A stretch of 64,000 nt of DNA from Styela clava (Eukaryota; Chordata; Ascidiacea; Stolidobranchia; Styelidae), in assembly GCF_964204865.1 (NCBI RefSeq), contig NC_135260.1, positions 5,642,001-5,706,000 of the forward strand, written 5' to 3'. Shown here one piece after another: positions 3,468 through 63,498 of this stretch; within the stretch, counting starts at the first letter, position 1; each line of letters starts with the position of its first letter. The notes below the pieces were generated by a model, which did not search any database, had not been told where the DNA came from, and was given only the letters and a program-made list of their open reading frames with translations. The position numbers and the translations under genes were made by a program.

Positions 3468-6424
3468 ATGTGGAAACGTTCAAAACTCTTCAATTGCAAA
3501 TGGTTGTTTATCATGATAATTGGTGAGATCTTACTTACATAAATAATTCTTACAAAATTACAACTATGGGGAGGCATAAGTATTGCTTCACATTAATTTG
3601 ATAACAGCAAATTTTATTTTAAATTTTTTTTTTTGTCCAATGAATTTGCCTCGATATTAAACCAATCACAATAAATTAGAGATCACATTATGAAAATTTT
3701 AATATGATTTTTCAATTTCTCAAGTGTTTAAAAACAGGAATAAAAAAGTTTCATACATTATATTAATAGCTTAGTTAAGACTTTGTACGTATTACAGATA
3801 TAAACAGATTACATCATTAAAATATGGAGGTCTTTCAATTCCGAAAAATTCAATTTTGAATGCAATTGATCTAGTTTTTGTAATCCTTATAGTACTCATC
3901 ATTGGTCTGAATGGAGCACGAACATGCACTGATTGTCGCAGTGTAACGCTTAGTACAGAGAACAAGAATATCATACATGGACCAAGTAATGAATACAACT
4001 GCAACTGTGATTGGACAATACCAACAAGTATGGAGACAGATCATGAAACTGCAGTTGTTCTGTTGTTACAAAATGTTTCACTTCCAAAGACAACTAGTAG
4101 TGGAAGTATAGACTGCAGCGGAGAAATCAGACTCCCAAGTAAGTTTTAACTGATGTAAGTAGGCTATTCAAGGATGACATCTCCAACATCAAAACATTCG
4201 TTTACTTGACAATATTAATTTGTTTCATGCAGGATGGGATGGATATAAATGTGAATTTCCAAGCAACTACTGTCTTGCATTTGCAACTGCATCAACCGTT
4301 TGCAACATCAACAAAATCAGAGAGAAAATTTCAGTTGCAAATCACACCTGTGATTCAATCATTCCGTGGAATTATGCTGGAGGAAGCCCATACAAGATAC
4401 ATTACTATGCAGCAAACCGTGCTGGTTACACTAAATACTTCACAATACAATACCATGTAATAGATTGCAGACCAACAACAACCACACCTGCACTCAGTGA
4501 GTAAATTCAATATTTTTATGCAATGCTTAATCATGTCTTATGCTCAAGTAGTCACAGATATGCCAATCTATAAAGAACCATAATTATCAAACCCGGGTGA
4601 GGTGGTGGGATGAGGGGAACCTGAGATGTGTAACCTACAACTGGAGTGGGCAAGGTTTTGGACTAGGGGCCAGAAATTTTGCCCATCTAGAATGACGGGC
4701 CATGTAAGTATAACGTGAAAAGTCACATTTTATGAACGATACTTAGTGTTACAAAAGCAAAAGTGGAAAACAATAAGTCTCATGCTAAAACTAAATCAAT
4801 CGCAATCTCAACAAATTCCTTGAGCTATTTTTAGCTAAAATATCAAAATTTAGTTTTAGTTTGGTTATGGCAGCATCAGGCGGGCCAAATTGAACTACCA
4901 AACGATCCGGATTTGGCCCGCAGGCTATAGTTTGCCCATGTCAGTCCTACAATGTGAACACAGTTTAAGTGTAACAACTTAACCCTGTGGTAACACTAGT
5001 GGTACGTACGTGGAAGCTTTCAAGTGGTACGCGAGTAGTTTGAATTATTGCAACAATTAACTTTTGAGTTGGCTAAAATATGGCAACAACGGGTTTATAT
5101 CAGCAGTTCTTGTTTTGAGACAGCCCTCGCCCGCTACTGCCCACCTAAAACGAAACAATGGACAAAACCTTCAACCCCTGATGGCAATCAACGCAAATTC
5201 TATCGTGATTTTGCACGCAATTAACACGTTGTTACTGCATAAAATAAATACTTCGAAACTTTGCAGGAGATCTAAAATGGATGTAGTGCTACATAAAATA
5301 CTATCATAGCGCGTTTCTTGTGCCATGGTTCCCCACCACAAAATAAAGTTTTTTCGGTGGTACGCGGCCAGAGTAAAAAGAACAAAAGTGGTACCGGTCA
5401 GTGGAAGATTGAGAACCGCTGCCTTAACCAATAAGGCCAGGCGATCATGCCCATATTGCTCTTGTTGAAACGATATAACATAATTTCAGGATGTGAGAAT
5501 CAAACTTTTATTACAAAATTTTAGCCACGGTAACTGAGCAAGCAACAACAACAGCAACTCATCAAAAAGATACATCATCTAATAAAATAGACTTTGACTC
5601 AACCAGTGAATCAACCAGAACATCTGGCAATGTTCAATGTTCAACTGAAAACAGTGAAAGCTGCAGCTGCCAAACATCACTGATCATCGCTATCCCAGTA
5701 TCAGGAATTGTGAGTTTGATCGTTGGGGCTTTGTTGACGTTCATAATACCAAGGTAAGCATAGATATTGTATATTAAATGAATGTCAATGAAAATGCATA
5801 AATTACCAAGTGGGCAATCTATCAAGTACAAAAAAATGTGTGCCACTCTGCCTCAGGGTTGACAAAATTTGAATACAAGTTTGAAAAAATAAAACCCAAT
5901 TTCAGCCAATTTTGTATAACAAATTATTTCGTTGAAAATGTTGCCATTTGCAAAATCCAAGTTTCATGGAAAACTTTTGGATACATCTTTTAACTCTGAT
6001 GCCAAAAAAATTTATATCAACTACAGTCTCGGATCCAATTCCAGCTAAATATGACAAACTTGACTGTTTATCGTAGATTCAGTGACGTCAGAAGCAGATA
6101 TTAAAACAGCAAATGATTACCGGTAGTCTCAATTACAGTATCAAGTAAATACATATAGTAATTATTAACTCAGAATCTCAGATTATATTTCTATCAAACA
6201 CCAGGTATTGCAATAACAACAAGAAGAAACCAAAGAACAACGATTCAATGGAAATGGGAAGCATTCAACATCAGCAGCCAACTGTCCATGAACGAACAAC
6301 ATATGAAAACTACACACCAACATCAGATGAAAGTGGATATGAAGTTCCGATTCCAGTTGATAACAAGAATGAACAACAATATGAGATTATAACAACTGGA
6401 AAGGAATATCAATATGATAATTGA
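3468..6424 (+). CDS. G1: CUB-like receptor with Tyr-rich tail (type I stalk)
   Basis: Five exons, 3468-3522, 3893-4138, 4233-4496, 5525-5753 and 6205-6424, join in one frame (1,014 nt, 337 aa) with GT-AG introns of phase 1, 1, 1 and 2. Residues 1-27 form a signal peptide (MWKRSKLFNCKWLF followed by a hydrophobic run). Residues 28 to about 185 hold ten cysteines (CxxC, NCNCDW, DCSG, then five more), three conserved N-glycosylation sequons and the strand-like ends VVLLLQNVSLP and YFTIQY, which resemble a CUB domain. A Thr/Ser-rich stalk leads to a helix at about 240-263 (SLIIAIPVSGIVSLIVGALL). The tail starts RYCNNNKKK and contains TYENY, one SGYEVP repeat and QQYEII. I do not recognise a named gene. 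Receptor signalling through phosphotyrosine is inferred. Confidence 0.8.
4642..4945 (+). mobile_element. hAT-like MITE in intron 3 of G1
   Basis: About 304 bp with GGAGTGGGCAA near the left end and TTTGCCCATGTCAGT at the right. It is flanked by CCTACAAC and CCTACAAT, an 8-base duplication with one mismatch. The right end has GGCCCGC-rich sequence typical of animal hAT ends. It occupies the same site in G2, G4, G10 and G11, so it inserted before those genes duplicated. Confidence 0.65.
4985..5421 (-). mobile_element. hAT MITE private to G1 intron 3
   Basis: About 437 bp absent from the same intron of G2, G4, G10 and G11. On the minus strand it begins CAGCGGTTCTCAATCTT, close to the CAGNGGTTCTCAAAC terminus common among animal hAT elements. 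It is flanked by ACTTAACC and CCTTAACC, and the uninterrupted site in G2 reads CCTTAACC. No transposase is visible. Confidence 0.65.
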
Positions 6425-9388: not shown

Positions 9389-12313
9389 ATGTGGAAACAT
9401 CCAAAACTCTTCAATTGCAAATGGTTGTTTATGCAGATAATTGGTGAGATCTTACTTACTTACAATAAGTTTAGTTACACATTCTGCTGTTACACAACCA
9501 ACTGTGATGGGCATTATTAGTTTCAAATTATTTACAATTACAGTAATTTGAAATTGTCTCACCAAATTATAATAAGCAAATTCTTTAAAATCAAATCGCG
9601 GACAATTGAGGTTATTTAACTTTTGTTTTCAAAACATATTTCACATCCAGATTCAATATAAAAATATTATATAATTTTAACTATTTTGTCTTTCAAATAC
9701 CTCGAATGTTTAAAAAAGGAATAATTAAGTTTTATACAATTATTCATGGATTTAAGAATCTGTAATACAATTGAAAAAGGATTATAAAATATATTTGATT
9801 TATAAATGTGTTTTAAAATTCGTAGTACTTCCAATTAAAAAAAATAAGTTCTATTGCAAATGAATAATCCCTTTTTAGCATTTAGTATTGATCTGAATGA
9901 AGCAGCACCCTGCACTGATTGCTCTAATATCATACTTGGAACAGAGAGCATCAATATAACATATGGACCGAATATGAATGAATACGATTGCAACTGTGAT
10001 TGGACAATACCAACAAGTATGGACACAGATCATGAAACTGCAGTTGTTCTGTTGTTACAAAATGTTTCATTGCCATTGACAACTAGTATTGGAAGTATAG
10101 ATTGCTCTGGAGGAATCAGATTCCCAAGTAAGCTGTATTATACTAATTACCGTACTGTTAATATACTACCGTATGCTATTCTAATATACAGCAACAATGA
10201 ATAAAAAACATCAGTAACTATAAAAATGCATAAAACCTTCACAGGAACGGATAGTTACAAATGTGAATTTTGGTGATCTCTGGTCTACAAAATAGGCTAA
10301 TAACAATGCAAACAAATATGTAATGTTTTAAATTAGAGGTTTGTAAAGCTGCAGTACATAAACAAAGCACACAGACGCTATGCTTATATTTATGACAAGT
10401 TGATACGACATTTGCGGACCCATGTACTTGATTACTGTATACCCTTCTAAAATACAGCAGCGATTAATAACAAAAAAACATTAGTAAATACCAAAAATGT
10501 ATCAACACTTTTATAGGCAATGCTCCTCACAAATGTGATTTTGCAATCAACTACTGTCTTGCATTTGCAACTGCATCAACCGTTTGCAACATCAACATAA
10601 TCAGAGAAAAAATTCCAGTTGCAAATCACACCTGTGATTCAATCATTACATGGAATAAAGCTGGAGGAAGCCCATACAAGATACAATATTATGCAGGAAA
10701 CTATGCTGGTTACACAAAATACTTCACAATACAATATCTTGTAATAGATTGCAGACCAACAACCACAACTGCACTAAGTGAGTAATTTTTTTTTATGCAA
10801 TGCTTAATCATGTCTTATGCTCAAGTAATCACAGATATACCAATCTATAAAAAACCATATTTATCACACCTGGGTGAGGTGGTGGGATGGGGGGAACCTG
10901 AGATGTGTAACCTACAACAGGAGTGGGCAAGGTTTTGGACTAGAGGCCAGAAAGTTTGCCCACCTAGAATGACGGACCATGTAAGTATAACGTGAAAAGT
11001 TACATTTTATGAACGATACTTAGTGTTACAAAAGCAAAATTGGAAAACAATAAGCCTCGTGCCAAAACTAAATTTAATCGCAATCTCAACAAATTCCTTG
11101 AGCTATTTTTGGCTAAAATATCAAAATTTAGTTTTAGTTTGGTTATGGCAGCATCAGGTGAGCCAAATTAAACTACCAAATAAGCCGGATTTGGCCCGTG
11201 GGCTGTAGTTTGCTTATGTCAGTCCTACAATGTTAACACAGTTCAAGTGTAACACCTTAACCACTAAGGCCATACGATCACGCCCATATTGCTCTTGTTG
11301 AACAATATAACTCAATTTCAGGATGTGAGAGTCAAACTTTTATTACAAAATTTTAGCCATGGTAACTGAGCAAGCAACAACAACAGCAACTCATCAAAAA
11401 GATACATCATCTAAAAAAATATACTTTGACTCAACCACTGAATCAACCAGAACATCTGGCAACGTTCAATGTTCAACTGAAAACACAGAATGCAGCAGTT
11501 CCCAAACATCACTGATCATTGCTATCCCAGTATCAGGATTCATGGGTTTGATCATTGGAGCTTTGTTGATGTTCATAATACCAAGGTAAGCATAGATATT
11601 ATATAATAAATGAATGTCAATGAAAATGGATAAATTACCAAGTGGGCAATCTATCAAGTACAAAAAAAATGTGTGCCACTCTCCACCTGAGAGTGATACC
11701 TGCTTCAAGAATGACAAAATTCAAATACAAGTTCGAAAAAATAAAACCCAATCTCAGCCAATTTTGTATAACAAATTATTTTGTTAAAAATGTTGCCATT
11801 TGCAAAATCCAAGTTTCATGGCAAACTATTGGATACATTTATTGACTCTGATGACAAAAAAATTTATATTAACTACAGTTTCGGATCCAATTCCAACTAA
11901 ATATGCCAAACTTGACTGTTTATCGTAGATTCAGTGAAGTCAGAAGCAGATATTAAAACAGCAAATGATTACCGGTAGTCTCAATTACAGTATCAAGTAA
12001 ATACATATAGTAATCATTAACTTTGATTATATTTCTATTAAACACCAGGTATTGCAATAACAACAAGAAGACACCAAAGAACAAAGATTCAATGGAAATG
12101 GGAAGCATTCAAAATCAGCAGCCAACTGTCCATGAACGAACAACATATGAAAACTACACACCAACATCAGATGAAAGTGGATATGAATATCTGAATCAAG
12201 TCGATAAAAAGAATAAACAAAGTGGATATGAAGTTCCGATTCCAGTTGATAACAAGAATGAACGACAATATGAGGTTATAATAACTGGAAAGGAATATCA
12301 ATATGACAATTGA
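9389..12313 (+). CDS. G2: CUB-like receptor with two tail repeats (type I stalk)
   Basis: Exons 9389-9443, 9879-10127, 10517-10777, 11357-11585 and 12049-12313 join to 1,059 nt (352 aa). The signal peptide is MWKHPKLFNCKWLFMQIIA. The ectodomain has one extra residue (GPNMNEYDCNC) but keeps the ten cysteines. The stalk starts TMVTEQATTTATHQKD and leads into the helix SLIIAIPVSGFMGLIIGALL. The tail has TYENY, a variant first repeat SGYEYLNQVDKKNKQ, a second repeat SGYEVPIPVDNKNER, then QYEVI and YQYDN. Intron 1 and exon 2 are closest to G7 and G11, while the stalk matches G1 and G10, a sign of recombination between members. Intron 2 is enlarged and contains a decayed duplicate of the start of exon 3. 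Confidence 0.8.
10245..10276 (+). pseudogene. Relic of a duplicated exon 3 start in G2 intron 2
   Basis: After a good acceptor (CTTCACAG), the reading STDSYKCEFW followed by TGA copies the first residues of exon 3 and then ends. The real exon 3 begins 270 bases later after a second copy of similar intron sequence. This is a partial tandem duplication of the intron 2/exon 3 boundary. If used, this acceptor would give a truncated protein. Confidence 0.6.
10919..11223 (+). mobile_element. hAT-like MITE in intron 3 of G2
   Basis: Same insertion as in G1 intron 3, flanked by CCTACAAC (10911-10918) and CCTACAAT (11224-11231). Confidence 0.65.
12176..12265 (+). repeat. Two 45-nt tail repeats in G2
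   Basis: Two in-frame copies of the 15-residue module. The first has diverged (SGYEYLNQVDKKNKQ) and the second is standard with YEVP. Confidence 0.8.
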
Positions 12314-15252: not shown

Positions 15253-16756
15253 ATGAGGAAACATTCAAAACTCTTCAATAGCAAATGGTTGTTTATGCAG
15301 ATAGTTGGTGAGATCCCACTTACATAAATAGTTCCAAATCAAGAAATAAATGTACATTTGTTACCCAAAAACATAGTAGCCTGATGAATTCTCATCCAAA
15401 GTCATTCATGAAATAATAATTTTAATATTAGATTTTCATTAATATAAGATTTCTAAATTGTTTAAAAAGAAGAGTAATGGAGTTTTATACAATATAATTC
15501 TCAACCATGTATTAGATTGAGAAAATATCAATTCTATACATATAAACGTGTTTTGGGCTTCATGAGACTGATGAAAATTGGATAGATTTCGCAATGTTGT
15601 AATTGTAAAAACTTATTTCTTTATAGCACTAAGCATCAGTCTGAATGAAGCGGCATCCTGCACTGATTGTTCAAATCCAATACTTGGAACAACCACTTCT
15701 AAACCAAGTAAATCTTAAACAGCATAAAAAATTCAGTTTAAAAGTAAAACATCCAATCCTGAAATAAACTTTCCTTTCAAATTACAGCAGCAACAAATGG
15801 ATGGGAAACAACAACAAAATATCCAGAAGAAATTTCGACAACACTCAAAGCTGAACAGACTACAAAGCTGAACGGTCTACAAACGGAAATTTCGACAACA
15901 CTGAAAGCTGAACCAAATACAAAAGACAAAAGTAATGAAATTTTATTTGTCAAAACAATAGCAATTATCCAATACACAATCATAATAAAAACTAAACTTC
16001 ATGAATTTCAGTTAGTGAAGCTGAGCAGCAAACAACACTATCTGATTCAGACAGAACTGAATCTCATTCAACAACTGATTTGGACAAAAACATCACAGTT
16101 ACCACGGAAACCAATGGAAGTTCTGATTTATTGACAATTGCAATTCCATTGTCAGGAATAGTTGCTTTTATCTTGGGAGCTTTGTCAATCTTTGTCATAC
16201 GAAGGTAACAAGTAAAACAACACATAGTAGCAATAATTTCTCCACAATACTTTCACTTTGAATATCGTTTTGAAAATTCGGCGCAATTTCAAGGTTTCGT
16301 TTGAATGTGGTTGAACAATATGCTAATAAATATTTTTATTAATATTTTGAACCCAGGTATTGCAACAAAAACAAGAAACCGAAAAAGAAAGATTCAATGG
16401 AAATTGGAAGCATCCAACATCAGCAGCCAACTGTCCATGAACGAACAACATATGAAAACTACACACCAACATCAGATGAAAGTGGATATGAAGTTCCGAA
16501 TCAAGTTGATAACAAGAATGAACAAAGTGGATATGAAGTTCCGATTCCAGTTGATAACAAGAATGAACAAAGTGGATATGAAGTTCCGAATCCAGTTGAT
16601 AACAAGAATGAACAAAGTGGATATGAAGTTCCGATTCCAGTTGATAACAAGAATGAACAAAGTGGATATGAAGTTCCGATTCCAGTTGATAACAAGAATG
16701 AACAACAATATGAGGTTGTGAGAAGCGGAGCAGAATACCAATATGAAAATGCGTGA
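15253..16756 (+). CDS. G3: ectodomain-less family member with five tail repeats (type II stalk)
   Basis: Exons 15253-15307, 15627-15707, 15788-15931, 16012-16204 and 16357-16756 join to 873 nt (290 aa). After the signal peptide (MRKHSKLFNSKWLFMQIVA) the first lines of exon 2 are present, through CTDCSNPILGT. They are fused directly to the last codons of a type II exon 3 (TTSKP). About 150 residues of CUB-like domain are missing, yet the frame and the phase 1 boundary are kept. The stalk is the two-exon type (TNGWETTTKYPEE; then EAEQQTTLSDSDRTESHS) with helix LLTIAIPLSGIVAFILGALS. The tail is complete, with five SGYEVP-type repeats, QYEVV and YQYENA. The donor after the fused exon (GTAAAT) is acceptable but not strong. 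It could be a receptor chain without a binding head, or a decaying copy. Confidence 0.7.
16481..16705 (+). repeat. Five 45-nt tail repeats in G3
   Basis: Five head-to-tail in-frame copies of a 15-residue module, SGYEVP(N/I)(Q/P)VDNKNEQ. Copies differ mainly at residues 7 and 8. The near-identical G5 has two, and the length difference between the genes is exactly three units (135 nt). Confidence 0.95.
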
Positions 16757-20112: not shown

Positions 20113-22863
20113 ATGTGGAAACATTCAAAACTCTTCATTTGCAAATGGTTGTTAATCCAGATAATTGGTGAGATCTTACTTAGATAAATAGTTCCAAATC
20201 AAAAAATAAATGTACATTTGTTACCGAAAAAACATAGTAGCCTGATGAATTCTCATCCAAAGTCATTCATGAAATAATAATTTTAATATTAGGTTTTCAT
20301 TAATATAAGATTTCTAAATTGTTTAAAAATGGAGTAAAGGAGTTTTATACAATATAATTTTCAACCATGTAATGAGATTGAGAAAATAACAATTTTATAC
20401 ATATAAACATGTTTTTGGCTTTACAAGACTGTTAAAATATGGATGGATTTCTCAATGTTGTAATTGTAAAAACTTATTTCTTTATAGCACTAAGCATCAG
20501 TCTGAATGAAGCGGCACCCTGCACTGATTGTTCAAATACAATACTTGGAACAGAAAGTAAGAATATCACATATGGACCAAGTAATGAATACAACTGCAAC
20601 TGTGATTGGACGATACCAACAAGAATGGACACAGATCATGGAACTGCAGTTGTTCTGGTGTTACAAAAAAATTCAATGCTAATGACAACTGGTAGTGGAA
20701 TTACAGACTGCTCTGGGGAAATCAGATTCCCAAGTAAGCTATATTATACTATTCTAGCTATATTATACTATTACTATACTAATATACGACAACCGTACAG
20801 CAACAATTATTAATAAAAAAACATTAGTAAATACAAAATTGTATCAATACTTTTACAGGTACTGTTTCTCATAAATGCGACTTTCCAAGAAACTACTGTC
20901 TTGCATTTGCAACTGCATCAACCGTTTGCAACATCAACAAAATCAGAGAGAAAATTCCAGTTGCAAATCACACCTGTGATTCAATCATTTCATGGAATGA
21001 AGCTGGAGGAAGCCCATATAAGATACGATATTATGCAAGAAATTATGCTGGTTACTCAAAATACTTCACAATACAATATCTTGTAATAAATTGCAGACCA
21101 ACAACCACACCTGCACTGAGTGAGTAATTTTTTATTTATGCAATGCCTAATCATGTCTTATGCTCAAGTAATCACAGATATACCAATCTATAAAGAACCA
21201 TATTTATCACACCCGGGAGAGGTGGTGGGATGGGGGGAACCTGAGATGTGTATCCTACAACTGGAGTGGGCAAGGTTTTGGACTAGAGGCCAGAAAGTTT
21301 GCCCACCTAGAATGACGGGCCATGTAAGTATAACGTGAAAAGTTACATTTTATGAACGATACCCAGTGTTACAAAAGTAAAAGTGGAAAACAATAAGCCT
21401 CGTGCCAAAACTAAATTAATCGCAATCTCAACAAATTCCTCGAGCTATTTTTAGCTAAAATATAAAAATTAAGTTTTAGTTTGGTTATGGCAGCATCAGG
21501 CGGGCCAAATTGAACTACCAAACGTTCCGATTATGGCCCGCAGGCTATAGTTTGCCCATGTCAGTCCTACAATGTCAACACAGTTTAAGTGTAACATTTT
21601 AACCACTAGGGCCAGGCGACCACGCCCATATTGCTCTTGTTGAACGATATATCTCAATTTCAGGATGTGAGAATCAAACTTTTATTACAAAATTTTAGCC
21701 ACGATAACTGAGCAAGCAACAACAATAGCAACTCATCCAAAAGATACATCATCTTATGAAACATTCTCAACCACTGAATCAACCAGAACCGCTGACAACA
21801 TTCAATGTCCCATTGAAGACTGTGAATGCACCAGCACCCAAGTATCAGAGGAGAATACAGTACCAAACTATTCTCAAACATCACTGATCATTGCTATTCC
21901 AGTGTCAGGAATTGTGGGTTTGATCATTGGAGTTTTGTTGACACTCATAATACCAAAGTAAGCATTGATGGTATAAATTAGATGAATATCATTTATGTTA
22001 CTCAAGTATGCTTGAATACAAGATATCAACAAAGGATTCAACCCAGTACTGTTAAGTCAGTGATAATCTCCATCTTCTGATTGCAAGATTACCAAAATTC
22101 TAACCCAGTCTCAAGCTGCTAATCATGAGTCTACAAGATTTTGACCTCAACTCTCAACTCCACAAATAATAAAAATGACTGACTCTATCTTCTGATGCCT
22201 ATGTTCTATTGAATCAAGTTGATTTTACCAATCTAATTCAAAGTTTAGAGAAAAAAACATAGTACTGTATCCAGATACTGCTGGATGACAATATTTTAAC
22301 TTTGATCATTGTGGAAGTTGCAAGCCTCATTAGTTTCAATTAGAAACGCTAATGACTATAGAATCTTAATAATTTATAATTTTAATTATAACTATTGAAA
22401 CTTGAACAACTAACTCCAGCCATAGTGCATGATTGCCAACAGGTAAATTCATGTTGATAATAAATGGAACACAACCAGTGTTAGCAGCCATGTTTCCAAT
22501 AGAAGCCTCAAATATCAAATTCACATTTTTGTGTGGGACCCAGTGAGGTAATGAAGCAAATGTCAAAATTAAAAGTGATTAGTCTCAGTGACTCTATCTA
22601 TGAATTATTCATCAACTTAGATTATATTTCTATCCAACACCAGGTACCGCAACAACAACAACAAGAAACCAAAGAACAAAGATTCAATAGAGATTGGAAG
22701 CATTCAACAACAGCAGCCAACTGTACATGAACGAATAACATATGAAAACTACGCACTAACATCAGATGAAAGTGCATATGAAGTTCCGATTCCAGTTGAT
22801 AACAAGAATGAACAACAATATGAGGTTATAATAACTGGAAAGGAATATCAATATGACAATTGA
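20113..22863 (+). CDS. G4: CUB-like receptor with one tail repeat (type I stalk)
   Basis: Exons 20113-20167, 20488-20733, 20859-21119, 21699-21957 and 22644-22863 join to 1,041 nt (346 aa). The signal peptide is MWKHSKLFICKWLLIQIIA. The ectodomain keeps the ten cysteines, but the usual LLLQNVSLP has become LVLQKNSMLM, so the second N-glycosylation site is lost. The stalk is ten residues longer than in G1 (extra EENTVPNYSQ before the helix). The tail has TYENY, one variant repeat SAYEVPIPVDNKNEQ, QYEVI and YQYDN. Upstream, the TATA box shared by its relatives has decayed to AAATTAAAATC, so expression may differ. Confidence 0.78.
21262..21565 (+). mobile_element. hAT-like MITE in intron 3 of G4
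   Basis: Same insertion as in G1 and G2 intron 3, flanked by CCTACAAC and CCTACAAT. Confidence 0.65.
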
Positions 22864-25886: not shown

Positions 25887-27255
25887 ATGAGGAAACATTC
25901 AAAACTCTTCAATAGCAAATGGTTGTTTATGCAGATAGTTGGTGAGATCCCACTTACATAAATAGTTCCAAATCAAGAAATAAATGTACATTTGTTACCC
26001 AAAAACATAGTAGCCTGATGAATTCTCATCCAAAGTCATTCATGAAATAATAATTTTAATATTAGATTTTCATTAATATAAGATTTCTAAATTGTTTAAA
26101 AAGAAGAGTAATGGAGTTTTATACAATATAATTCTCAACCATGTATTAGATTGAGAAAATATCAATTCTATACATATAAACTTGTTTTGGGCTTTATGAG
26201 ACTGATGAAAATTGGATGGATTTCGCAATGTTGTAATTGTAAAAACTTATTTTTTTATAGCACTAAGCATCAGTCTGAATGAAGCGGCATCCTGCACTGA
26301 TTGTTCAAATACAATACTTGGAACAACCACTTCTAAACCAAGTAAATCTTAAACAGCATAAAAAATTCAGTTCAAAAGTAAAACATCCAATCCTGAAATA
26401 AACTTTCCTTTCAAATTACAGCAGCAACAAATGGATGGGAAACAACAACAAAATATCCAGAAGAAATTTCGACAACACTCAAAGCTGAACAGACTGCAAA
26501 GCTGAACGGTCTACAAACGGAAATTTCGACAACACTGAAAGCTGGACCAAATACAAAAGACAAAAGTAATGAAATTTTATTTGTCAAAACAATAGCAATT
26601 ATCCAATACACAATCATAATAAAAACTAAACTTCATAAATTTCAGTTAGTGAAGCTGAGCAGCAAACAACACTATCTGATTCAGACAGAACTGAATCTCA
26701 TTCTACAACTGATTTGGACAAAAACATCACAGTTACCACGGGAACCAATGGAAGTTCTGATTTATTGACAATTGCAATTTCATTGTCAGGAATAGTTGCT
26801 TTTATCTTGGGAGCTTTGTCAATCTTTGTCATACAAAGGTAACAAGTAAAACAACACATAGTAGCAATAATTTCTCCACAATACTTTCACTTTGAATATT
26901 GTTTTGAAAATTCGGTGCCATTTCAAGGTTTCGTTTGAATGTGGTTGAACAATATGCTAATAAATATTTTTATTAATATTTTGAACCCAGGTATTGCAAC
27001 AAAAACAAGAAACCGAAAAAGAAAGATTCAATGGAAATTGGAAGCATCCAACATCAGCAGCCAACTGTCCATGAACGAACAACATATGAAAACTACACAC
27101 CAACATCAGATGAAAGTGGATATGAAGTTCCGATTCAAGTTGATAACAAGAATGAACAAAGTGGATATGAAGTTCCGATTCCAGTTGATAACAAGAATGA
27201 ACAACAATATGAGGTTGTGAGAAGCGGAGCAGAATACCAATATGAAAATGCGTGA
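25887..27255 (+). CDS. G5: ectodomain-less family member with two tail repeats (type II stalk)
   Basis: Exons 25887-25941, 26261-26341, 26422-26565, 26646-26838 and 26991-27255 join to 738 nt (245 aa). It is a near-identical copy of G3 at an offset of 10,634 bases and shares its in-frame loss of the CUB-like domain. Outside the tail repeats I count seven coding substitutions against G3, six of them changing the amino acid: P to T in exon 2, T to A and E to G in the first stalk exon, and E to G, P to S and R to Q in the second. The tail has two SGYEVP repeats rather than five, then QYEVV and YQYENA. It has an intact frame and acceptable splice sites. It could be functional or a recent duplicate of a non-functional copy. 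Confidence 0.7.
27115..27204 (+). repeat. Two 45-nt tail repeats in G5
   Basis: Two in-frame copies of the 15-residue YEVP module. The flanking tail sequence is the same as in G3, which has five. Confidence 0.95.
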
Positions 27256-31065: not shown

Positions 31066-32371
31066 ATGTGGAAATATTCAAAACATATCAATTGCAAATG
31101 CTTGTTTATGCAGATAATTGGTGAGAAACTGAGATCTTACTTGAGAAGTCGACATTTTTTAACTAAAAACATAATAACCTAATGAATTCTCATACAAATT
31201 TAAGCATAAAATATTGATTTTAATATGAGATTTTTATTATTAATATCAGATTGCTCAATAGTTTAAAAACAATAATAATGGAGTTTTACACATTATACCT
31301 TTTATTAAACCCCGAAATAAGATTGAAAAAATATCAATTCCAGGTACTCCTGTAGTATGTGAACCAAGATGGCAGACACCGGAACGTAGTATGTGTATCA
31401 GGTTAGAGTTAGGCCATAATTTCATCTATTGTATTTGAGCTATTGCGTCTATATAAAGGTGTTATGTGATATTGTGTCGATATAATGTGATGTTTTTATT
31501 AATACAAAAAAAACAAAAATTTCAGGTACAAATACTATGGGAGTCACTTGGCTAGTCCCCGAACTCGAAATAGAACTAAAATGGGAAAATTGGAATAAAA
31601 TTATGTCTTAACCCTAACCTGGTACACATACAACATTCCGAGGCCCGCCGTCTTGGTTCACATACTACGGGAGTACCCAATTATATAGGTATGAATACCA
31701 TTACCGTATATATAACTTATAAGTGTGTTTTTGGAAATATAAGCCTGCAAGAAAATTTGAAGGATTTTTAAATGTTATTGTGAAACATTTTATAGCACTC
31801 AGCATCAGTCTGAATGAAGCAGCAATATGCACTGATTGTTCAAATACAATACTCAGAACAGAGAGTGTGAATATCACATATGGACCAAGTAATGAGTACA
31901 GCTGCAACTGTGATTGGACAATACCAGAAGATATGGACACAGATCATGAAACTGCTGTTGTTCTGTTGTTACAAAATTTTTCATTACCGAGGACAACTAG
32001 TAGCAGTACTACACACTGCTCTGGGAGAATCAGATTTCCAAGTAAGTGTTCAGTACAATACAAGTATAAAGTAATTAAAAACAAATGATGCTTCACTTGT
32101 TAGAGCAATATAATTGTTCTACAAGTATCAAATGGTCTGGGACATTTGCAATTAACTCAACAATACTAATGTAATTTATGCAGGCACTGATGGATACAAA
32201 TGTGAATTTGCAAGCAACTACTGTCTTGTATTCGAAACTACATCAACCACTTGCAACATCAACAAAATCAGAGAGAAAATTCCAGTTGCAAATCACACCT
32301 GTGATTCAATCATTCCATGGGATAAAGCTGGAGGAATCCCATATAAGATACAATACTATGCAGGAAACTGA
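31066..32371 (+). pseudogene. G6: family member truncated inside the ectodomain
   Basis: Exons 31066-31120, 31796-32041 and 32184-32371 join in frame to a TGA (489 nt, 162 aa). The signal peptide is MWKYSKHINCKCLFMQIIA. Exon 2 and most of exon 3 are intact, with cysteines in place through HTCDSIIPW. Exon 3 stops at YAGN; the last YFTIQY segment, stalk, helix and tail are absent. Immediately after the break the sequence matches 60733 onward, the spacer before G11, so an unequal recombination joined exon 3 to another unit's upstream spacer. Exons 2 and 3 and the intron between them are closest to G10. Intron 1 contains a foldback MITE. It would encode a secreted fragment with an incomplete domain; a pseudogene is most likely. 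Confidence 0.7.
31343..31677. mobile_element. Foldback MITE in G6 intron 1
   Basis: About 335 bp with long inverted arms of roughly 80 bases each: GGTACTCCTGTAGTATGTG at the left end and its near complement at the right. Flanks are CAATTCCA and CAATTATA (6 of 8 match). It is related to the GGTACTCC MITEs, but both ends look like the left arm, so it is a symmetric derivative. Confidence 0.75.
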
Positions 32372-45781: not shown

Positions 45782-45915
45782 CAGAAGCTTGTTAAGTGCC
45801 GTGACAGGTCTTGTATTTTGTCAGTTGGATTTTGTCTTTATTTATGTCAGTACTGTGTAATGAATTGATTGATTGAAGAAACAAAGCAAAGCAAGTTGCT
45901 GAAGATAAACTCAAC

Positions 45916-48260
45916 ATGTGGAAACATTCAAATCTCTTCAATTGCAAATGGTTGTTTATGCAGATAATTAGTGAGATTTTACTTACTAAAACTAAAAGCT
46001 AAAAATGAACAAATAAATGTACATTTGTCAATTAAAAACATAATAGTCCAATGTATTCTCATATAAATTTATTCATACAATAAATATTTTAATATTAAAT
46101 TTTCACTAATATTATATCGCTCAATTGTTTGAAAACAAGAGAAATAGAGTTTTATACATTATAACTTTTAAATTCTGTAATAAGATATGGAATATATAAA
46201 TATATGTATAAGAGCATTTTGGCAATATAAGCCCGCAAAAAAATTTGGATTGTTGAAATTTTATTGTAAAACTTTTCATAGCACTCAGCATCAGTCTGAA
46301 TGAAGCATGGGGACCATGTGCTGATTGTCCCAATATCATACTTGGAATAGAGAGTAAGAATATCACATATGGACCAAGTAATGAATACAACTGCCAATGT
46401 GATTGGACAATACCAACAAGTATAGAGATAGATAATGAAACTGCAGTTGTTCTGTTGTTACAAAATGTTTCACTGCCGATCACAACTGGTACTGGAAGTA
46501 TAGACTGCTCTGGGTCAATCAGATTCCCAAGTAAGCGTATATTATACTATTTTACTATTACTATACTACCGTACAGCAACAATTAATAAAAACATCACTA
46601 AATACATAACTATATCAATACTTTTACAGGCACTAATTCTCATAAATGTGATTTTCCAAGCAACAACTGTCTTGCGTTTGCAACTTCATCAACCATTTGC
46701 AACATGAACAAAATCAGAGAAAATATTCCAGTTACAAATCACACCTGTGATTCAATCATTCCATGGAATAACGTTGCAAGAGGAAGCCCATACAAGATAC
46801 AATACTATGCAGGAAACCGTTATGGATACACAAAATACTTCACAATTCAATATCTTGTGATAGATTGTAGACCAACAACAACCCCACCAGAAGCAGGTAA
46901 GTCATATACTTCTTGGTTTGCACATCTACACCAACACATAATTGTTTAATTCTCATAATGAAGATAAATTTATTTTCAGCGACAACAATGCAACAGAAAC
47001 AAACAAAAAAGGTTCCATTAACACTTGGAAGAATTATATGTGAAACAACAACTTTTGAAACCACCAAAATTACTGGTATGAATGAATCAAGTAAGTTCAT
47101 AAGTTTGCTTGTACGTCATAATTTTATGTCGATTTTCCTTATTTTAGTTATATTACCAGTTCAGAGACTGTCTGTGTTAGCCAAGTGAATATAAATAACC
47201 CTGCCTATAGGCTTTTGTCCCTTGATGTAAAAGTAGGGGAAAAAGATTAGTTACCTCCATATTGGTACACATACTTCTGGAGTGCCGTTGTTTTAAGATC
47301 AAATTCCTTGGATTTGTAAATAATCCTGTGTGAGATGTTTGACAGTTCAATAAAGAGTTTCTCTCCAAGATTCTGTTTTTCCAAACACTAGTAGATACTT
47401 ACCCAGCAGTGGCTGGCTGATTGTGTGTTCAGAGCGTAAGGCAAATGATACGTCTTGAAAAGCTATTCCAGTTGTAAAAAATCACTAAAGCCAAACAATT
47501 CTTTTCTAGAAATGACTACAAACACAAAAGAAACTGCCAGTGATCAAAAAATGTATAGAAAACTCAGATTCTGCATCCCTAACAATGATTGCAGTAGGTA
47601 CATCATCAGGATTTATTGTAGGAATCATCATCGGAGTTTTGACAACTTGCTTGATTCAGAGGTAAACAAGACAATTTACTGTTTTGTAAAATTAAAATAT
47701 TTCAAGAGCAATAAACTATTTAGTTTAGCTTATTTGATGCTCAAAAACAAAAAAAAAACTTTTGGAAATGGCTGTTCTAAGTGCTAACTTAACCAATTCA
47801 TTATTACCAAAACTTTATTAAAACCATAAAAAAAATTTTTTTTGATGGAAGATCGTATTTTACACTCGTTTGATGGATAATCTGCTTGATAAATAATAAA
47901 AATCTTCAATTTGTATCATTTTATTCAATATTAGTGTAATGAAAATAATTACATTATAATCCAGTCAAATACAGTATAAAAGGCTGTCAATGCAAATGTC
48001 AGTGCACCGTAATCATATTATTAAAAGTTGTAAAAATTATTGTAATTTGTAGATTATTGAGAAAAAAGAAGCAGAAAAACCAAATGGAAATGCAGAGCAG
48101 TCAACATCATCAACATACCACCATGAAAAATGCAGAATATGAAAATCATGAACCAACTTCAAACGGAAACGGATACGAAGTTATAATTCCAGTTGATAAT
48201 AAGAATGAAAGACCATATGAAGAGATAATATGTGGGATGGAATCTGCATATGAAAAATAA
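45916..48260 (+). CDS. G8: divergent CUB-like receptor with ITAM-like tail
   Basis: Exons 45916-45970, 46282-46530, 46630-46896, 46980-47090, 47541-47661 and 48053-48260 join to 1,011 nt (336 aa). The signal peptide and ectodomain follow the family (ACADCPNIILG... wording aside, CxxC, NCQCDW, DCSG and five exon 3 cysteines). The first stalk exon is unlike any other member (ATTMQQKQTKKVPLTLGRI). The membrane exon gives SLTMIAVGTSSGFIVGIIIG. To keep its frame I use the acceptor ending GCCAG at 47540; the stronger-looking CTAG at 47509 would throw the helix out of frame. The tail is RLLRKKKQKNQMEM, then AEYENH, NGYEVIIPVDNKNERPYEEI and AYEK. YEVI and YEEI are ten residues apart, an ITAM-like spacing, and YEEI is the optimal Src-family SH2 ligand. 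The exon 4-5 junction is the least certain part. Confidence 0.65.
47108..47286 (+). mobile_element. 5'-truncated GGTACTCC-type MITE in G8 intron 4
   Basis: Contains the central and right portions of the MITE ending TTCTGGAGTGCC but lacks the left terminus. Confidence 0.6.
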
Positions 48261-51730: not shown

Positions 51731-53801
51731 ATGGATTCAAAAATAAAAATGATGACCTGCCAAAGCAGCATATGGATTCTCCTTGGTAAGAACATTTTCC
51801 ATATAGAATACTAATAGGATTTATTCATATTTATTCTGGAAGGGAGCAAATCATCTTGTCATGTGACAAATTATGGCCTCTCTGCCAGTTCCATGTTGGA
51901 TATGGGAAGAGTTAACTAGTTTATCTCCCACAATTATTCAGTACCAAAAGCAGCACATATTACCGAAATTCTAGATATAGTGCTCAAAAGTGGGCTTAAC
52001 CTGTTCTGGTAGGACAACAAATATCTTGTACCAGTCCATGAAAAACAATTGATTGAAGGTGAACGGTACAGATGCTATGAACACACAACTGCACCGATAT
52101 AGTAAAACTAGCAGTCAAAATGAAGAAATCCGAAATGATCTTTATATATTAATTGTGAATATTGAAAATATTACACCAATCTACAGTAAGCATAAATTAT
52201 ACAGAATGAGAAATGAATACCTTGTATATTTTTTTCAGCTATTATGATCAATGTGAATGAAGCATATCAATGCCCTAGTTGTCCCAAAATAACACTTGGA
52301 ACAGAGAACAAGAATATCACATATGGACCAAGTAATGAGCGGGACTGCCAATGTGATTGGACAATACCAACAAGTATGGCCACAGATCACGAAACTGCAG
52401 TTGTTCTGTTGTTACAAAATGTTTCATTGCCAATGACGGCTGGTAGTGGAAGTAGAGACTGCTCAGGAGAAATCAGATTTCCAGGTGAGTATTCAATACT
52501 CTTACGCAGGTAAAACTAGTTGTTGATGAAAATAAACTTTGTGCAGGTGCTAGTGGACACAGATGTGATTTTGCAAACAACCAGTGTATTGTTTTTACAA
52601 CTGAATCAACCATTTGTAACATGAACATAATCAGAGAGAAAATTCCAGTTGCAAATCACACCTGTGATTCAATCATTCCATGGAATAATGCTGGAGGAAG
52701 TCCATATAATGTACAATACTATTCCAGAGGCTATGTTGGTTACACAAAATACTTCACAATACAATATCTTGTGGTAGATTGTAGATCTTCAGCAACAACT
52801 TTTAAACCAAGTAAGTCATAAACAGCAAAAACATTCAGTTTAACAGTAAAACATCCAACACTAAAAATGAATCTTTTTTTTCTCAAAATACAGCAACAGC
52901 AAATGGATGGGAAACAACAACAAAGAATCCAATAGAAATTTCGACAACAGAAAAAACTGAACGGACTACAAAAAACAAAAGTAATAAAAGTTTATTTGTC
53001 GAAACAATAGCAATCATCCAATACACAATCATAGTCAAAATTATTATAAATTTTAGTTACCGAAGCTGAGCAGCGAACAACACAATCTGATTCCGGCATA
53101 ACTAATTCTCATTCCATATGTGATTTGGACAAAAACATCACCATCACCACGGGAATCAATGGAAGTTCTGATTCACTGATGATCGCAATTCCAGTTTCAG
53201 GAATAGTTGGTTTTATCTTTGGAGCTTTGTCAATGTCTTTCATACAAAGGTAAGAAGTAAAATAACAGTAGCAATATTTTCCCCTCGTTACTTTCAATTT
53301 GTATATTGCTTTTGAATATTGTTTTGAGAAATAGGCATAAGTCATTCCGGGTTTTGTTCGAATATGATTAAACAATATGCTATTAAATATTTTTAACCCA
53401 GGTATTGCAACAAGAACAAGAAGAAATTGAAGAACAAAGATTCAATGGAAATGGGAAGCATTCAACATCCAGAGCCAACTGTCCATAAACGAACAACATA
53501 TGAAAACTACACACCAACATCAGATGAAAGTGGATATGAAGTTCCGAATCAAGTTGATAATAAGAATGAACAAAGTGGATATGAAGTTCCGAATCAAGTT
53601 GATAACAAGAATGAACAAAGTGGATATGAAGTTCCGAATCAAGTTGATAACAAGAAGGAACAAAGTGGATATGAAGTTCTGAATCAAGTTGATAATAAGA
53701 ATGAACAAAGTGGATATGAAGTTCCGATTCAAGTTGATAACAAGAATGAACAACAATACAAAGTTATGACAACTGGAAAAGAATATGAATATGAGAATTA
53801 A
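51731..53801 (+). CDS. G9: CUB-like receptor with alternative first exon and five tail repeats
   Basis: Exons 51731-51785, 52239-52484, 52547-52810, 52894-52980, 53057-53249 and 53402-53801 join to 1,245 nt (414 aa), the longest member. Exon 1 is again 55 nt and phase 1 but unrelated in sequence: MDSKIKMMTCQSSIWILL, continuing into AIMINVNEAYQC. The ectodomain keeps the family cysteines (CPSCPKI, DCQCDW, DCSGE, then RCDF and NQC in exon 3). The stalk is type II (TANGWETTTKNPIE; EAEQRTTQSDSG) with helix SLMIAIPVSGIVGFIFGALS. The tail has TYENY, five repeats with YEVP, YEVP, YEVP, YEVL and YEVP, then QYKVM and YEYEN. The usual promoter block is absent and a tandem repeat array lies just upstream, so it is probably regulated differently from its neighbours. 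Confidence 0.78.
53529..53753 (+). repeat. Five 45-nt tail repeats in G9
   Basis: Five in-frame copies of the 15-residue module, mostly SGYEVPNQVDNKNEQ. The fourth reads SGYEVL. Confidence 0.95.
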
Positions 53802-56124: not shown

Positions 56125-58537
56125 ATGTGGAGACATTCAAATCTCTTCAATTGCAAATGGTTGTTTATGCAGATAATTGGTGAGATCTTACTTGCATAAA
56201 AGTTACACATAAACAAATAAGTTCCAAATCAACAAATAAATGTAATTTGTTAACCAAAAACATAATACCCAATGAATTCTCATCCAAATTTAACCATGAA
56301 ACAATAATTTAATTATAATATTAGATTTACATTATTATTAGACTGCACAATTATTTAAAAACAAGAATAATAGAGTTTTATACATTATAACGTTTAAACC
56401 CTGTAACAAGATAGAGGAAATATCAATTGTATAAGTATAAGCACGCTTTTAGCTTTATGACCCGCAAAAACATTTGCAGAATTTTTGAATGTGATTGAAA
56501 AACTTATTTCTTTATAGTGCTTAGCATCAGTCGGAATGAAGCGGCACCCTGCACTGATTGCTCCAATGAAATACTTGGAACAGAGAGCAAGAATATCACA
56601 TATGGACCAAGTAATGAACACAATTGCAACTGTGATTGGACAATACCAGAAGCTATGGACACAGATCATGAAACAGATCATGTTGTTGTTCTGTTGTTAA
56701 AAAATTTTTCATTACCGAGGACAACTGGTAGTGGAAGTACACGCTGCTCTGGAGAAATCAGATTCCCGAGTAAGTGTTCAATACAATACAAGTGTTCAGT
56801 AAAGTAATTAAAAACACATGATGCTTCACTTGTTAGAGCAATATAATTGTTCTACAAGTATCAAATGGTCTGGGATAATTGTAATTAACTCAACAATACT
56901 AATGTAATTTATGCAGGCACTGATGGATACAAATGTGAATTTGCAAGCAACTACTGTCTTGTATTCGAAACTACATCAACCACTTGCAACATCAACAAAA
57001 TCAGAGAGAAAATTCCAGTTGCAAATCACACCTGTGATTCAATCATCCCATGGAATAGAGTTGGAGGAAGCCCATACAAGATACAATACTATGCAGGAAA
57101 CTTTGCTGGTTACTCAAAATACTTTACAATACAATATCTTGTGGTAGATTGCAGACCAACAACCACACCTGCAATCAGTGAGTAATTTCATTTTTTATCT
57201 AATGCTTAATCATGTCTTATGCTCAAGTAATCACAGATATACCAATCTATAAAGAACCATATTTATAACACCCTGTTGAGGTGGTTAGATGGGGGGAACC
57301 TGAGATGTGTAACGTACAACAGGAGTGGGCAAGGTTTTTGGACTAGAGGCCAGAAATTTTGCCCAACTTGAATGACGGGCCATGTTAGTATAACGCGAAA
57401 AGTTACATTTTATGAACGATACTTAGTGTTACAAAAGCAAAAGTGGAAAACAATAAGCCTTATGCCAAAACTAAATTAATCGCAATCTAAACAAATTCTT
57501 TGAACTATTTTTTAGCTAAAATATCAAAAATTTAAAAATTTAGTTTCAGTTTGGTTATGGCAGCATCAGGTGGAACAAATTAAATTACCAAACGATCCAG
57601 ATTTGGCCCGCGGGCTGTAGTTTGCCCATGTCAGTCCTACAATGTCAACACAGTTCAAGTGTAACACTTTAACCACTAGGGCCAGGCGACCATGCCCAAA
57701 TTGCTCTTGTTGAACGAAATAACTCAATTTCAGGATGTAAGAATCAAACTTTTATTACAAAATTTTAGCAACGGTAACTGAGCAAGCAACAACAATAGCA
57801 ACTCATCAAAAAGATACATCATCTTATAAAACATACTTCAACTCAACCAGTGAATCAACCAGAACATCTGGCAACGTTCAATGTTCAACTGAAAATAGTG
57901 AATGCTGCAGCTGCCAAACGGCACTGATCATTGCTATCGCAGTATCAGGAATTGTGAGTTTGATCGTTGGAGCTTTGTTGATGTTCATAATACTAAGGTA
58001 AGCGTAGATAGGAAGCATAGATAAATGTCGATGGAAATGCATGAATTTACAAGTCCACCAAGAACTGCGCAATCCATCATGTATAAAAATATTTGACAAT
58101 AACAAAACATTTGGTATGAAAATGTTGCAATTTGCAAACTTATAGGTTTCATGATATACTTTTTGATAGATTTTTTGAGTCAACAACTACAGTTTCGGAT
58201 CCAGTTCCATCTAAAATTCCAAACTATCATTTCGTCGTAGATCCAGTGAGATGAAGAAGCAGATATTAAACCAAATACATGCATCTATCAACTAACTTAT
58301 ATTTTATCAAACACCAGGTATTGCAACAACAACAACAAGAAACCGAAGAACAAAGATTCAATGGAAATGGGAAGCATTCAACATCAGCAGCCAACTGTCC
58401 ATGAACGAACAACATATGAAAACTACACACCAACATCAGAGGAAAGTGGATATGCAATTCCGGATCAAGTTGATAAAAAGAATGAACAACAATATGAGGT
58501 TATAACAACTGGAAAAGAATATCAATATGACAATTAA
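56125..58537 (+). CDS. G10: CUB-like receptor with one tail repeat (type I stalk)
   Basis: Exons 56125-56179, 56518-56769, 56917-57177, 57769-57997 and 58318-58537 join to 1,017 nt (338 aa). The signal peptide is MWRHSNLFNCKWLFMQIIV. Exon 2 is two codons longer than usual: a short duplication gives MDTDHETDHVVVLLLKNFSLP where relatives read MDTDHETAVVLLLQNVSLP. The ten cysteines remain. The stalk is TTVTEQATTIATHQKD with helix ALIIAIAVSGIVSLIVGALL. The tail has TYENY, one altered repeat SGYAIPDQVDKKNEQ in which YEVP has become YAIP, then QYEVI and YQYDN. The exon 2-intron-exon 3 segment is nearly identical to that of truncated G6. Confidence 0.78.
57321..57635 (+). mobile_element. hAT-like MITE in intron 3 of G10
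   Basis: Same insertion as in G1, G2, G4 and G11, flanked by CGTACAAC and CCTACAAT. Confidence 0.6.
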
Positions 58538-61613: not shown

Positions 61614-63498
61614 ATGTGGAAATATTCCAAATTATTCAAATGCAAATGGTTGTTTATGCAGATAATTGGTGAGATCTTACTTACATTAAGTTTAGTAACA
61701 CATTCTGCTGTTACACAATCAACTGTGATGGGTATTATTAGTTGGTATTCGAAAGTTTCAAATTATTTACAATTACAGTAATTTGAAATTGTCTCATCAA
61801 ATTATGATAACAACTTCTTTAAAATCAAATCGCGGACAATTGAGGTTATTCAACTTTTGTTTTCAAAACATATTACACATCCAGATTCAATATAAAAATA
61901 TTATATAATTTCAACTATTTTGTCTTTCGAATACCTCGAATGTTTAAAAAAGGAATAATTAAGTTTTATACAATTATTCATGGATTTAAGAATCTGTAAT
62001 ACAATTGAAAAAGTATTATAAAATATATTTGATTTATAAATGTGTTTTAAAATTCGTAGTATTTTAAAAAAAAAAGGGTATATTGCAAATGAATAACTCA
62101 ATTCCTTTTTAGCATTTGGTATTGGTCTGAATGAAGCAGCACAATGCACTGACTGTCCAACTACAAAACTTGGAACAGAGAGCAAGAGTATCACATATGG
62201 ACCAATTTATAAATACAACTGCTGGTGTGATTGGACAATACCAACAAGTATTGAGACAGATCATGAAACAGCAGTTGTTCTGTTGTTGCAGAATGTTTCA
62301 CTGCCATTGACAACTGGTAGTGGACATACAGACTGCTCTGGAGAAATCAGATTCCCAAGTTAGATATATTTTAAAACTACTCAACTATTACTACACTACT
62401 ACGTTATATACAATTCTAATATACAGAAACAATTAACAAAAAAAAACATTAATACCGGTAAATACAAAATTGTATCAATGCTTTTACAGGCACTGATGGA
62501 TACAAATGTGAATTTGCAATCAACTACTGTCTTGTATTTGCAACTGCAGTAACCATTTGCAATATCAACAAAATCAGAGAGAAAATTCCAGTTGCAAATC
62601 ACACCTGTGATTCAATTATTCCATGGAATAAAGCTGGAGGAAGTCCATATGAGATACAATACTATGCAGCAAACCGTGCTGATTACTCAAAATACTTCAC
62701 AATACAATATCTTGTAATAGATTGCACACCAACAACATCTGCACTGAGTGAGTAATTTTTTTTTTATGCAATGCCTAATCATGTCTTATGCTCAAGTAAT
62801 CACAGATATAGCAATCTATAAAGAACCATATTTATCACACCCGGGTGAGGTGGTGGGATGGGGGAACCTGAGATGTGTAACGTACAACAGGAGTGGGCAA
62901 GGTTTTTGGACTAGGGGCCAGAAAGTTTGCCCACCTAGAATGACGGACCATGTAAGTATAACGTGAAAAGTTACATTTTATGAACGATACTTAGTGTTAC
63001 AAAAGCAAAAGTGGAAAACAATAAGCCTCGTGCCAAAACTAAATTAATCGTTTTAGTTTGGTTATGGCAGCATCAGGTGGGACAAATTAAACTACCAAAT
63101 AAGCCGGATTTAGTCCGCGGGCTGTAGTTTGCCCATGTCGGTCTTACAATGTCAACACAGTTTAAGTGTAACACCTTAACCACTAGGGTCAGGCGACCAT
63201 GCCCATATTGCTCTTGTTGAACAATATAACTCAATTTCAGGATGTGAGAATCAAACTTTTATTACAAAATTTTAGCCACGATAACTGAGCAAGCAACAAC
63301 AACTCATCCAAAAAATACATCATCTGATAAAATATACTTTGATTCAACCACTAAATCAACCAGAACATCTGGCAAAACTCAAAGTCCTATTAAAGACTGT
63401 GAATGCGACAGCACTGAAACATCACTGATCATTGCTATTCCAGTATCAGGAATTGCGGGTTTGACCATTGGAGTTTTGTTGACACTCATAATACCAAA
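61614..63498 (+). CDS. G11: CUB-like receptor, 3' end outside window (type I stalk)
   Basis: Exons 61614-61668, 62113-62358, 62490-62747 and 63276-63498 join in frame to 260 codons plus two bases. By analogy with G4 the tail exon should start about 690 bases further on, beyond the window. The signal peptide is MWKYSKLFKCKWLFMQIIA. Exon 2 reads CTDCPTTKLGT, YKYNCWCDW and DCSGE; the tryptophan between the paired cysteines is unusual. The donor of exon 2 is GTTAGA instead of GTAAGN. If it is not used, translation stops at the TAG directly after PS. The stalk is short (TTITEQATTTHPKN) with helix SLIIAIPVSGIAGLTIGVLL. Exon 4 and its intron resemble G4. Confidence 0.7.
62889..63142 (+). mobile_element. 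hAT-like MITE in intron 3 of G11
   Basis: Same insertion as in G1, G2, G4 and G10 but about 60 bases shorter inside; flanked by CGTACAAC and CTTACAAT. Confidence 0.6.

Follow-up and report, generated by a model that had tools for sequence, protein, structure and literature searches.

We analyzed a stretch of 64,000 nucleotides from the ascidian Styela clava, here called the window (C14:5,642,001-5,706,000; contig C14 is 22.07 Mb long and the assembly 377 Mb), and found in it part of a tandem array of one gene family. The genes of the locus probably code for recognition receptors of the cell surface, a family of type I proteins with a CUB-fold ectodomain and tyrosine-docking tails of several classes. 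A preliminary description of the window had proposed clustered recognition receptors. This reading is supported by segmental duplication, by the presence of several tails on one kind of ectodomain, and by a contrast between ectodomain and tail at three loci, one locus being without it; the recognition function itself is what we infer from these features.

The array was bigger and more varied than first described. We counted 37 copies, headless and truncated copies included, in the 256 kb of C14:5,520,001-5,776,000, and all 171 exon matches of this region lay on the + strand. Self-BLAST showed that the array is built of duplicated blocks, the 25 longest of which had 80-98% identity, and that the longest block extended over 5.8 kb at 96.8% identity.

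Gene architecture, tails and ectodomain fold

Exon queries (tblastn) detected eleven groups of family exons on the + strand of the window, within 3468-63498, and their borders carried splice signals. The number of members described earlier was thus recovered, and the outer limits then given coincide with the start of one exon and the end of another in the spliced models. Eight of the 11 copies could be spliced with GT-AG introns in phases 1, 1, 1, 2 and with no internal stop, gene 9 departing from these phases by one extra phase-1 stalk exon. The full-length protein, of about 320-415 residues, has a signal peptide encoded across two exons; it is further encoded by two ectodomain exons, a stalk/transmembrane (TM) exon, sometimes with an extra stalk exon, and a tail exon. 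The order of signal peptide, ectodomain, stalk, TM and tail that had been claimed agrees with these open models and, for genes 1, 10 and 11, with RefSeq. Each of the six full ectodomains spliced has ten cysteines, again as claimed. No charged residue was found in the 20-residue TM cores listed (P0039, with a mis-called TM row, was set aside).

The members differ by whole modules. Genes 3 and 5 are headless, as first described; that is, in these two spliced copies the start of the first ectodomain exon continues in frame into the end of the second. Headless copies were found at five places in the 256 kb (5.629, 5.640, 5.657, 5.668 and 5.750 Mb); in the first of these, at 5.629 Mb, a stop interrupts the tail. 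The tail-less members that had been noted are gene 7, which stops at the end of its TM exon, and gene 6, which stops inside the second ectodomain exon; the form ending at the TM exon occurs twice, the second copy lying at 5.716 Mb (C14:5716470-5720464). Gene 9 does have a different first exon, and different stalk/TM exons and repeat numbers were likewise seen. The introns on either side of each ectodomain exon are in phase 1, so that these exons can be removed or exchanged without loss of the frame. The RefSeq isoforms P0010 and P0042, from one locus, are without the second ectodomain exon, which is present in an older record of that locus, P0027. RefSeq P0041 (LOC120347104, 624 residues; C14:5570062-5579762) has two ectodomains, apparently across two adjacent copies; either the receptor is two-headed or the model is a fusion.

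One kind of ectodomain is joined to at least two groups of tails, A/B and C/D. Tail A contains YENY, GYEVP repeats, QYEVI and YQYDN, and tail B contains AYENH, GYEVIIP and PYEEI; the two are akin, with GYEV...VDNKNE in common. Tail C (ALYSVV, CVYAVV) and tail D (NAIYGTS, EIYDTT, CLYAVV, SIYAVV) are also akin and have YAVVQK in common. The tail of P0005 is short and lacks such motifs, and that of P0037 is of another tyrosine-rich kind.

We counted motifs in 36 tails and in shuffled tails; the tails are related copies, so that the counts are not independent, and they include P0039, with its misplaced TM call, and P0042, the isoform of P0010. The motif YxN occurred 63 times vs 26.1 +/- 4.6 in shuffled tails, YxxP 37 times vs 12.6 +/- 3.2, and Yxx[ILV] 48 times vs 30.5 +/- 5.2. 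Known partners of such motifs are Grb2 for YxN, Crk/Nck for YxxP and Src-type SH2 domains for YEEI. The consensus forms of the immunoreceptor tyrosine-based inhibition motif (ITIM), the corresponding switch motif (ITSM) and the half form of the activation motif (ITAM), called hemITAM (DEDGYxxL), are those in an extract of PMC11484026. A relaxed hemITAM (DESGYEYL) was present in 4 of the 36 tails (4 vs 0.0 +/- 0.2 shuffled), and DEDGYxxL itself in none of the tails listed. The pair YEVI-x10-YEEI was found in 2 of the 36 tails (P0007, P0021) and, by reading, in the tail of gene 8. The number of GYEV-type units per tail ranged from 0 to 24. At C14:5616181-5617425, a 45-bp repeat has expanded to an extreme: the 415-residue tail encoded there contains 24 GYEV-type units and has 28 tyrosines.

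The CUB-like character of the ectodomain had been called by eye; the predicted fold agreed with this call and the sequence profile did not. In two predicted models, made from different query proteins, CUB chains stood at the top of the VIA re-alignment, spermadhesin CUB structures were among the structural matches, and the beta-sandwich of the CUB fold was present. At E up to 10, the Pfam CUB profile (PF00431) matched neither the joined ectodomain nor a single one of the 10 proteins with a full listing, and CUB was absent among the best 25 of 79 families in a scan of 33 members. A CUB fold of the ectodomain is supported by these models. CUB domains have a four-cysteine, two-disulphide pattern; in this family ten cysteines are nearly invariant, and variation is higher outside the predicted strands (0.93 vs 0.64 bits). 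The Pfam scans detected only families that did not reach the curated cut-offs, such as TMEM154 and RIFIN, chiefly in the stalk and TM, and these were not accepted as relatives. Sequence searches of the PDB gave weak best matches (TIM-3, E 0.13; membrane stretches of channel and G-protein-coupled receptor entries), and no Ig or sushi Pfam match was obtained in the 10 proteins.

The spermadhesin matches also bear on the idea of a role in self-sterility or in recognition between sperm and egg. Passages of PMC7344649 record self-incompatibility in other ascidians, and CUB domains are mentioned in an excerpt of a review of ascidian fertilisation (PMC9265791). In our judgement, however, the long tyrosine-docking tails are better suited to signalling in blood cells, and we regard a role in gamete recognition as very unlikely.

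For the recognition receptors that we propose, ligand-induced clustering and phosphotyrosine signalling would be the simplest mechanism, because the family combines a variable single-domain ectodomain, a stalk, a TM segment without charged core residues and several tyrosine-docking tails. The ten-cysteine ectodomain, varying mainly outside the predicted strands and carried on a Thr/Ser-rich stalk, would bind a ligand, which may be microbial, altered-self or allogeneic. Binding would cluster the receptors, Src-family kinases would then phosphorylate the tail tyrosines, and the tail class would set the output, as in paired immune receptors. That is, tail A (YENY, repeated GYEVP) may recruit adaptors of the Grb2/Crk/Nck type, with the repeat number setting the gain. 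Tail B (YEVI-x10-YEEI) may act in an ITAM-like manner and some tail-A members (DESGYEYL) in a hemITAM-like manner, and for tails C and D (YAVV/YSVV) the recruited partners may be other SH2 proteins, perhaps phosphatases. Copies without a tail might serve as decoys and headless copies as modulators of the signal.

Sequence variation and the weighing of the readings

The pooled ratio of nonsynonymous to synonymous differences (pN/pS) was 0.63 and 0.60 for the two ectodomain exons, 0.73 for the stalk/TM exon, 0.43 for tail A and 0.34 for tail D. A parsimony count gave 0.55 and 0.60 for the ectodomain exons, 0.76 for stalk/TM and 0.44 for tail A. By these estimates the constraint is weaker on the ectodomain (0.55-0.63) than on the tails (0.34-0.44). 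Several cysteines and core residues showed the opposite trend to an excess of amino-acid change.

The histories of the exons were compared by the correlation of pairwise distances between exons, against 200 random codon splits. The correlation with the TM exon was low for the first ectodomain exon (rho 0.29 vs 0.87 +/- 0.03; 0 of 200 splits as low), for the second (0.50 vs 0.86; 0 of 200) and for tail A (0.40 vs 0.87; 0 of 200). It was also reduced between the second ectodomain exon and tail A (0.30 vs 0.54; 4 of 200) and between the two ectodomain exons (0.33 vs 0.46; 8 of 200), and the difference between the first ectodomain exon and tail A was not significant (0.02 vs 0.21; 23 of 200).

Nine proteins (P0015, P0016, P0020, P0023, P0024, P0026, P0027, P0031, P0040) come from records without a contig and form a second set, which we take to be the annotation of an earlier assembly, from another animal (that of Wei et al. 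2020). Six locus names are common to both sets. For LOC120347100, the tails were 94.9% identical and the ectodomains 70.7%, the latter no closer than to LOC120347529 (74.0 and 70.7%), and in the ectodomain tree the common ancestor of the pair spans 24 of 27 leaves. For LOC120347529, identity was 94.9% in the tails and 74% in the first ectodomain exon; since the tails differ between these two loci (72-73% identity), this locus assignment looks sound. For LOC120337975, the only copy found on C13, the TM segment and aligned tail were 100%, the ectodomain 85% and the stalk 83% identical, and the pair are sisters in the ectodomain tree with support 0.49. For LOC120347532 (sisters, support 0.83), the ectodomain was 74% and the tail 90% identical, a contrast also usual between paralogues. 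The LOC120347067 pair was rejected as alleles, its stalks being 45% identical, and is probably a paralogue match. A divergent ectodomain with a fixed tail thus seems to occur within pairs at three of the six loci. An ectodomain that varied between animals more than the tail would be as expected of self/non-self or pathogen recognition.

Several points weigh against recognition receptors with a CUB fold and tyrosine signalling. Foldseek gave no E below 0.001 for either model, and its first row for each of them was a p24 GOLD domain. The ITAM pattern with spacing up to 12 occurred 2 times vs 0.4 +/- 0.6 (shuffled maximum 2), that is, barely above the shuffled level. ITIM-type motifs showed no enrichment in the 36 tails (9 vs 6.1 +/- 2.5), so that ITIM-based inhibition as a family-wide rule is unsupported. 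Seven ectodomain codons had an uncorrected p below 0.05 for positive selection (smallest 0.013), none was significant after correction, and the overall ratio of substitution rates (dN/dS) was below 1. The two halves of the first ectodomain exon correlated at 0.08 and those of the second at 0.54. The discordance of distances is therefore not bound to exon borders, and a simple exon-shuffling reading is weakened; short length, uneven rates or conversion within exons are possible causes. That the two protein sets represent two animals is a presumption, and a shared locus name may join two paralogues. In the database, proteins with more than 90% identity are merged, whereby near-identical pairs are hidden and divergent pairs over-represented, and at LOC120347103 the one comparable ectodomain exon was 94.4% identical, without contrast. 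Because of the merging, LOC120347103 and the within-exon control, we lowered our confidence in the receptor reading.

The array could also have expanded in tandem in a largely neutral way, from a receptor with an everyday function in adhesion or signalling, with drift and gene conversion producing the mosaic pattern. The 80-98% identity of the duplicate blocks, a dN/dS near 0.6 without significant positive sites, the broken copies, and the low correlation even between two halves of one exon agree with this idea. On the other hand, 8 of the 11 window copies have open frames, the ten cysteines are nearly invariant, the tail repeats are kept in frame, and three loci show the contrast of ectodomain and tail. 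We consider neutral expansion unlikely.

The same contrast would be expected if the cluster were the histocompatibility system of this solitary tunicate, a functional counterpart of Botryllus fester/FcoR with recognition by polymorphic ectodomains. Botryllus also belongs to the Styelidae, its FF/FcoR genes are described in part of PMC12065747 as clustered, variable in gene content and bearing ITIM, hemITAM and YxxI/L/V motifs, and, in the title of a paper that PMC7344649 cites, histocompatibility reactions are reported for Styela plicata together with fusion between individuals. However, the ectodomain here is not Ig/sushi, LOC120347103 is without strong contrast, and an excerpt of PMC7344649 leaves open whether the fusion in Styela plicata is discriminatory; we think an allorecognition locus rather improbable. 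Equally doubtful is a CUB-fold histocompatibility complex convergent with Botryllus fuhc, in which the tail of each locus would be fixed and the phase 1-1 ectodomain exons diversified or swapped between loci and individuals. If this were true, one recognition repertoire would plug into activating, inhibitory, decoy and headless forms. The reading that we prefer is the broader one of recognition receptors with tyrosine-docking tails.

The array and its individual copies

By hand count, at least about 8 further copies lie outside the 256 kb (Table 1). Of the two divergent relatives at C14:19044501-19053500, one is P0037, whose tail has several YDDN/YDDS-type motifs, and in the other, identity of the ectodomain exons to the query was about 45-47%. 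When a composite ectodomain was searched for, 10 of 47 candidates matched, all ten named 'uncharacterized protein [Styela clava]'. A seven-member profile gave 40 matches among 6,452 candidates, and a 13-member profile that included divergent members gave 26 among the 7,991 candidates scored, namely those sharing most words; all were from Styela clava. As far as these database searches reach, the family is known from Styela clava alone, a claim limited by the tunicate coverage of the collection.

The 11 copies in the window comprise six full-length copies (one with its tail beyond the window), two headless but open copies and three truncated or broken copies. RefSeq P0001 (LOC144429792) fuses genes 6 and 7 (31066-34062), and P0003 (45916-46946) reads past the ectodomain of gene 8 and ends after it; the RefSeq annotation is unreliable at broken copies.

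A BLAST search of the 35.1-45.9 kb gap against the cluster found a conserved block of about 1 kb immediately upstream of the signal exon of gene 8, for which other parts of the 256 kb gave as many as 35 overlapping matches; it is a possible shared promoter region. At the threshold applied, two other segments between genes 7 and 8 resembled nothing else in the array and may mark an insertion that parted gene 7 from a tail exon. Nine non-family open reading frames of the window, including those tested between genes 7 and 8, had no Pfam match below E 0.07, and searches for RNA families and tRNA gave no matches.

Table 1. Family copies and other features (window positions unless a contig or Mb is given)
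Feature	Position	Strand	Exons	Remarks
Gene 1	3468..6424	+	signal 3468-3522; ectodomain 3893-4138, 4233-4496; stalk/TM 5525-5753; tail 6205-6424	GT-AG throughout; one GYEV-type tail unit; translation equals RefSeq P0011 (LOC144429949) letter for letter
Gene 2	9389..12313	+	9389-9443, 9879-10127, 10517-10777, 11357-11585, 12049-12313	open spliced model; last 334 residues equal RefSeq P0014 (LOC120347067), which starts at the ATG at 9860 instead; tail DESGYEYL, hemITAM-like
Gene 3	15253..16756	+	15253-15307, 15627-15707, 15791-15931, 16012-16204, 16357-16756	headless; open spliced model without most of the ectodomain; 5 GYEV-type tail units; resembles RefSeq P0038 (LOC120347070)
Gene 4	20113..22863	+	20113-20167, 20488-20733, 20859-21119, 21699-21957, 22644-22863	open spliced model
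Gene 5	25887..27255	+	25887-25941, 26261-26341, 26425-26565, 26646-26838, 26991-27255	headless; open spliced model; near-duplicate of gene 3 (C14:5655120-5658570 vs 5665760-5669204, 94.9%, self-BLAST)
Gene 6	31066..32368	+	signal and both ectodomain exons	TM or tail exon not found with exon queries
Gene 7	33288..35085	+	signal, ectodomain, stalk and TM exons	tail exon not found with exon queries
Gene 8	45916..48257	+		tail-B type, ITAM-like YEVI-x10-YEEI; frame break in stalk exon, relative to the tail-B paralogue at 5.724 Mb
Gene 9	51731..53801	+	first exon 51731-51785; 52239-52484, 52547-52810, 52900-52980, 53057-53249, 53402-53801	open spliced model; alternative acceptor at the 52900 exon; five GYEV-type units; paralogue of RefSeq P0025
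Gene 10	56125..58537	+	56125-56179, 56518-56769, 56917-57177, 57769-57997, 58318-58537	equals RefSeq P0018 (LOC144429675) letter for letter
Gene 11	61614..63498	+	61614-61668, 62113-62358, 62490-62747, 63276-63498	equals first 260 of 333 residues of RefSeq P0013 (LOC144429527); tail exon outside the window at C14:5706084 (window position 64084)
Segments without similarity	35417-37117; 39163-44661			between genes 7 and 8
Conserved block	44661-45897	+		upstream of gene 8
Outlying copies	C14:5.776-5.787 Mb			two
Outlying copies	6.16-6.19 Mb	-		three plus single exons
Outlying copies	C14:19.045-19.053 Mb			two, divergent; detected in two genome searches
Outlying copy	C13			one

Comparison with known systems

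In the open-licence literature, preprints excluded, no paper was found that names any of six locus identifiers, and none on Styela or tunicate CUB receptors describes a family with this combination of features, in agreement with the preliminary description. If our reading is true, an unnamed large receptor array in a solitary relative, with another fold and a similar logic of tyrosine motifs, would suggest that such repertoires have been built repeatedly from different modules. The locus offers a concrete place at which recognition by blood cells, and allogeneic reactions if there are any, can be tested in solitary Styela.

The array resembles the FF/FcoR system of Botryllus schlosseri, another member of the Styelidae, in its clustered multigene organization and diverse ectodomains. 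In the portion of PMC12065747 cited here, FcoR are described as type I proteins whose tails bear ITIM, hemITAM or YxxI/L/V motifs. They differ from the Styela family in having IgV, sushi and two IgC2 domains and 520-610 residues, whereas the Styela proteins have one CUB-fold domain and are shorter. No pairing like that of FF and FcoR turned up in the Styela array, no test having been aimed at it.

A haemocyte membrane glycoprotein of Halocynthia roretzi bears an ITAM with two tyrosine motifs and is active in phagocytosis and aggregation, according to part of PMC5465252. It is likewise an ascidian membrane protein with tyrosine motifs, described there as a single glycoprotein, and the likeness is one of description. 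Unlike the CUB-domain proteins C1r/C1s/MASP, neuropilin, TSG-6 and the spermadhesins, the Styela family has no Pfam CUB match and has ten cysteines, and its single domain stands on a membrane stalk with a docking tail.

As in the paired immune receptors, namely the NK-complex lectins, CEACAMs and LILRs, one type of ectodomain is carried on different tails, with an ITIM/ITAM/hemITAM logic as outlined in an extract of PMC11484026. In contrast to them, the Styela family has another ectodomain fold, and its listed TM cores are without a charged residue. Clustered, diversifying recognition receptors are already known as a kind, and the Styela family would be one of them with an ectodomain of predicted CUB fold.

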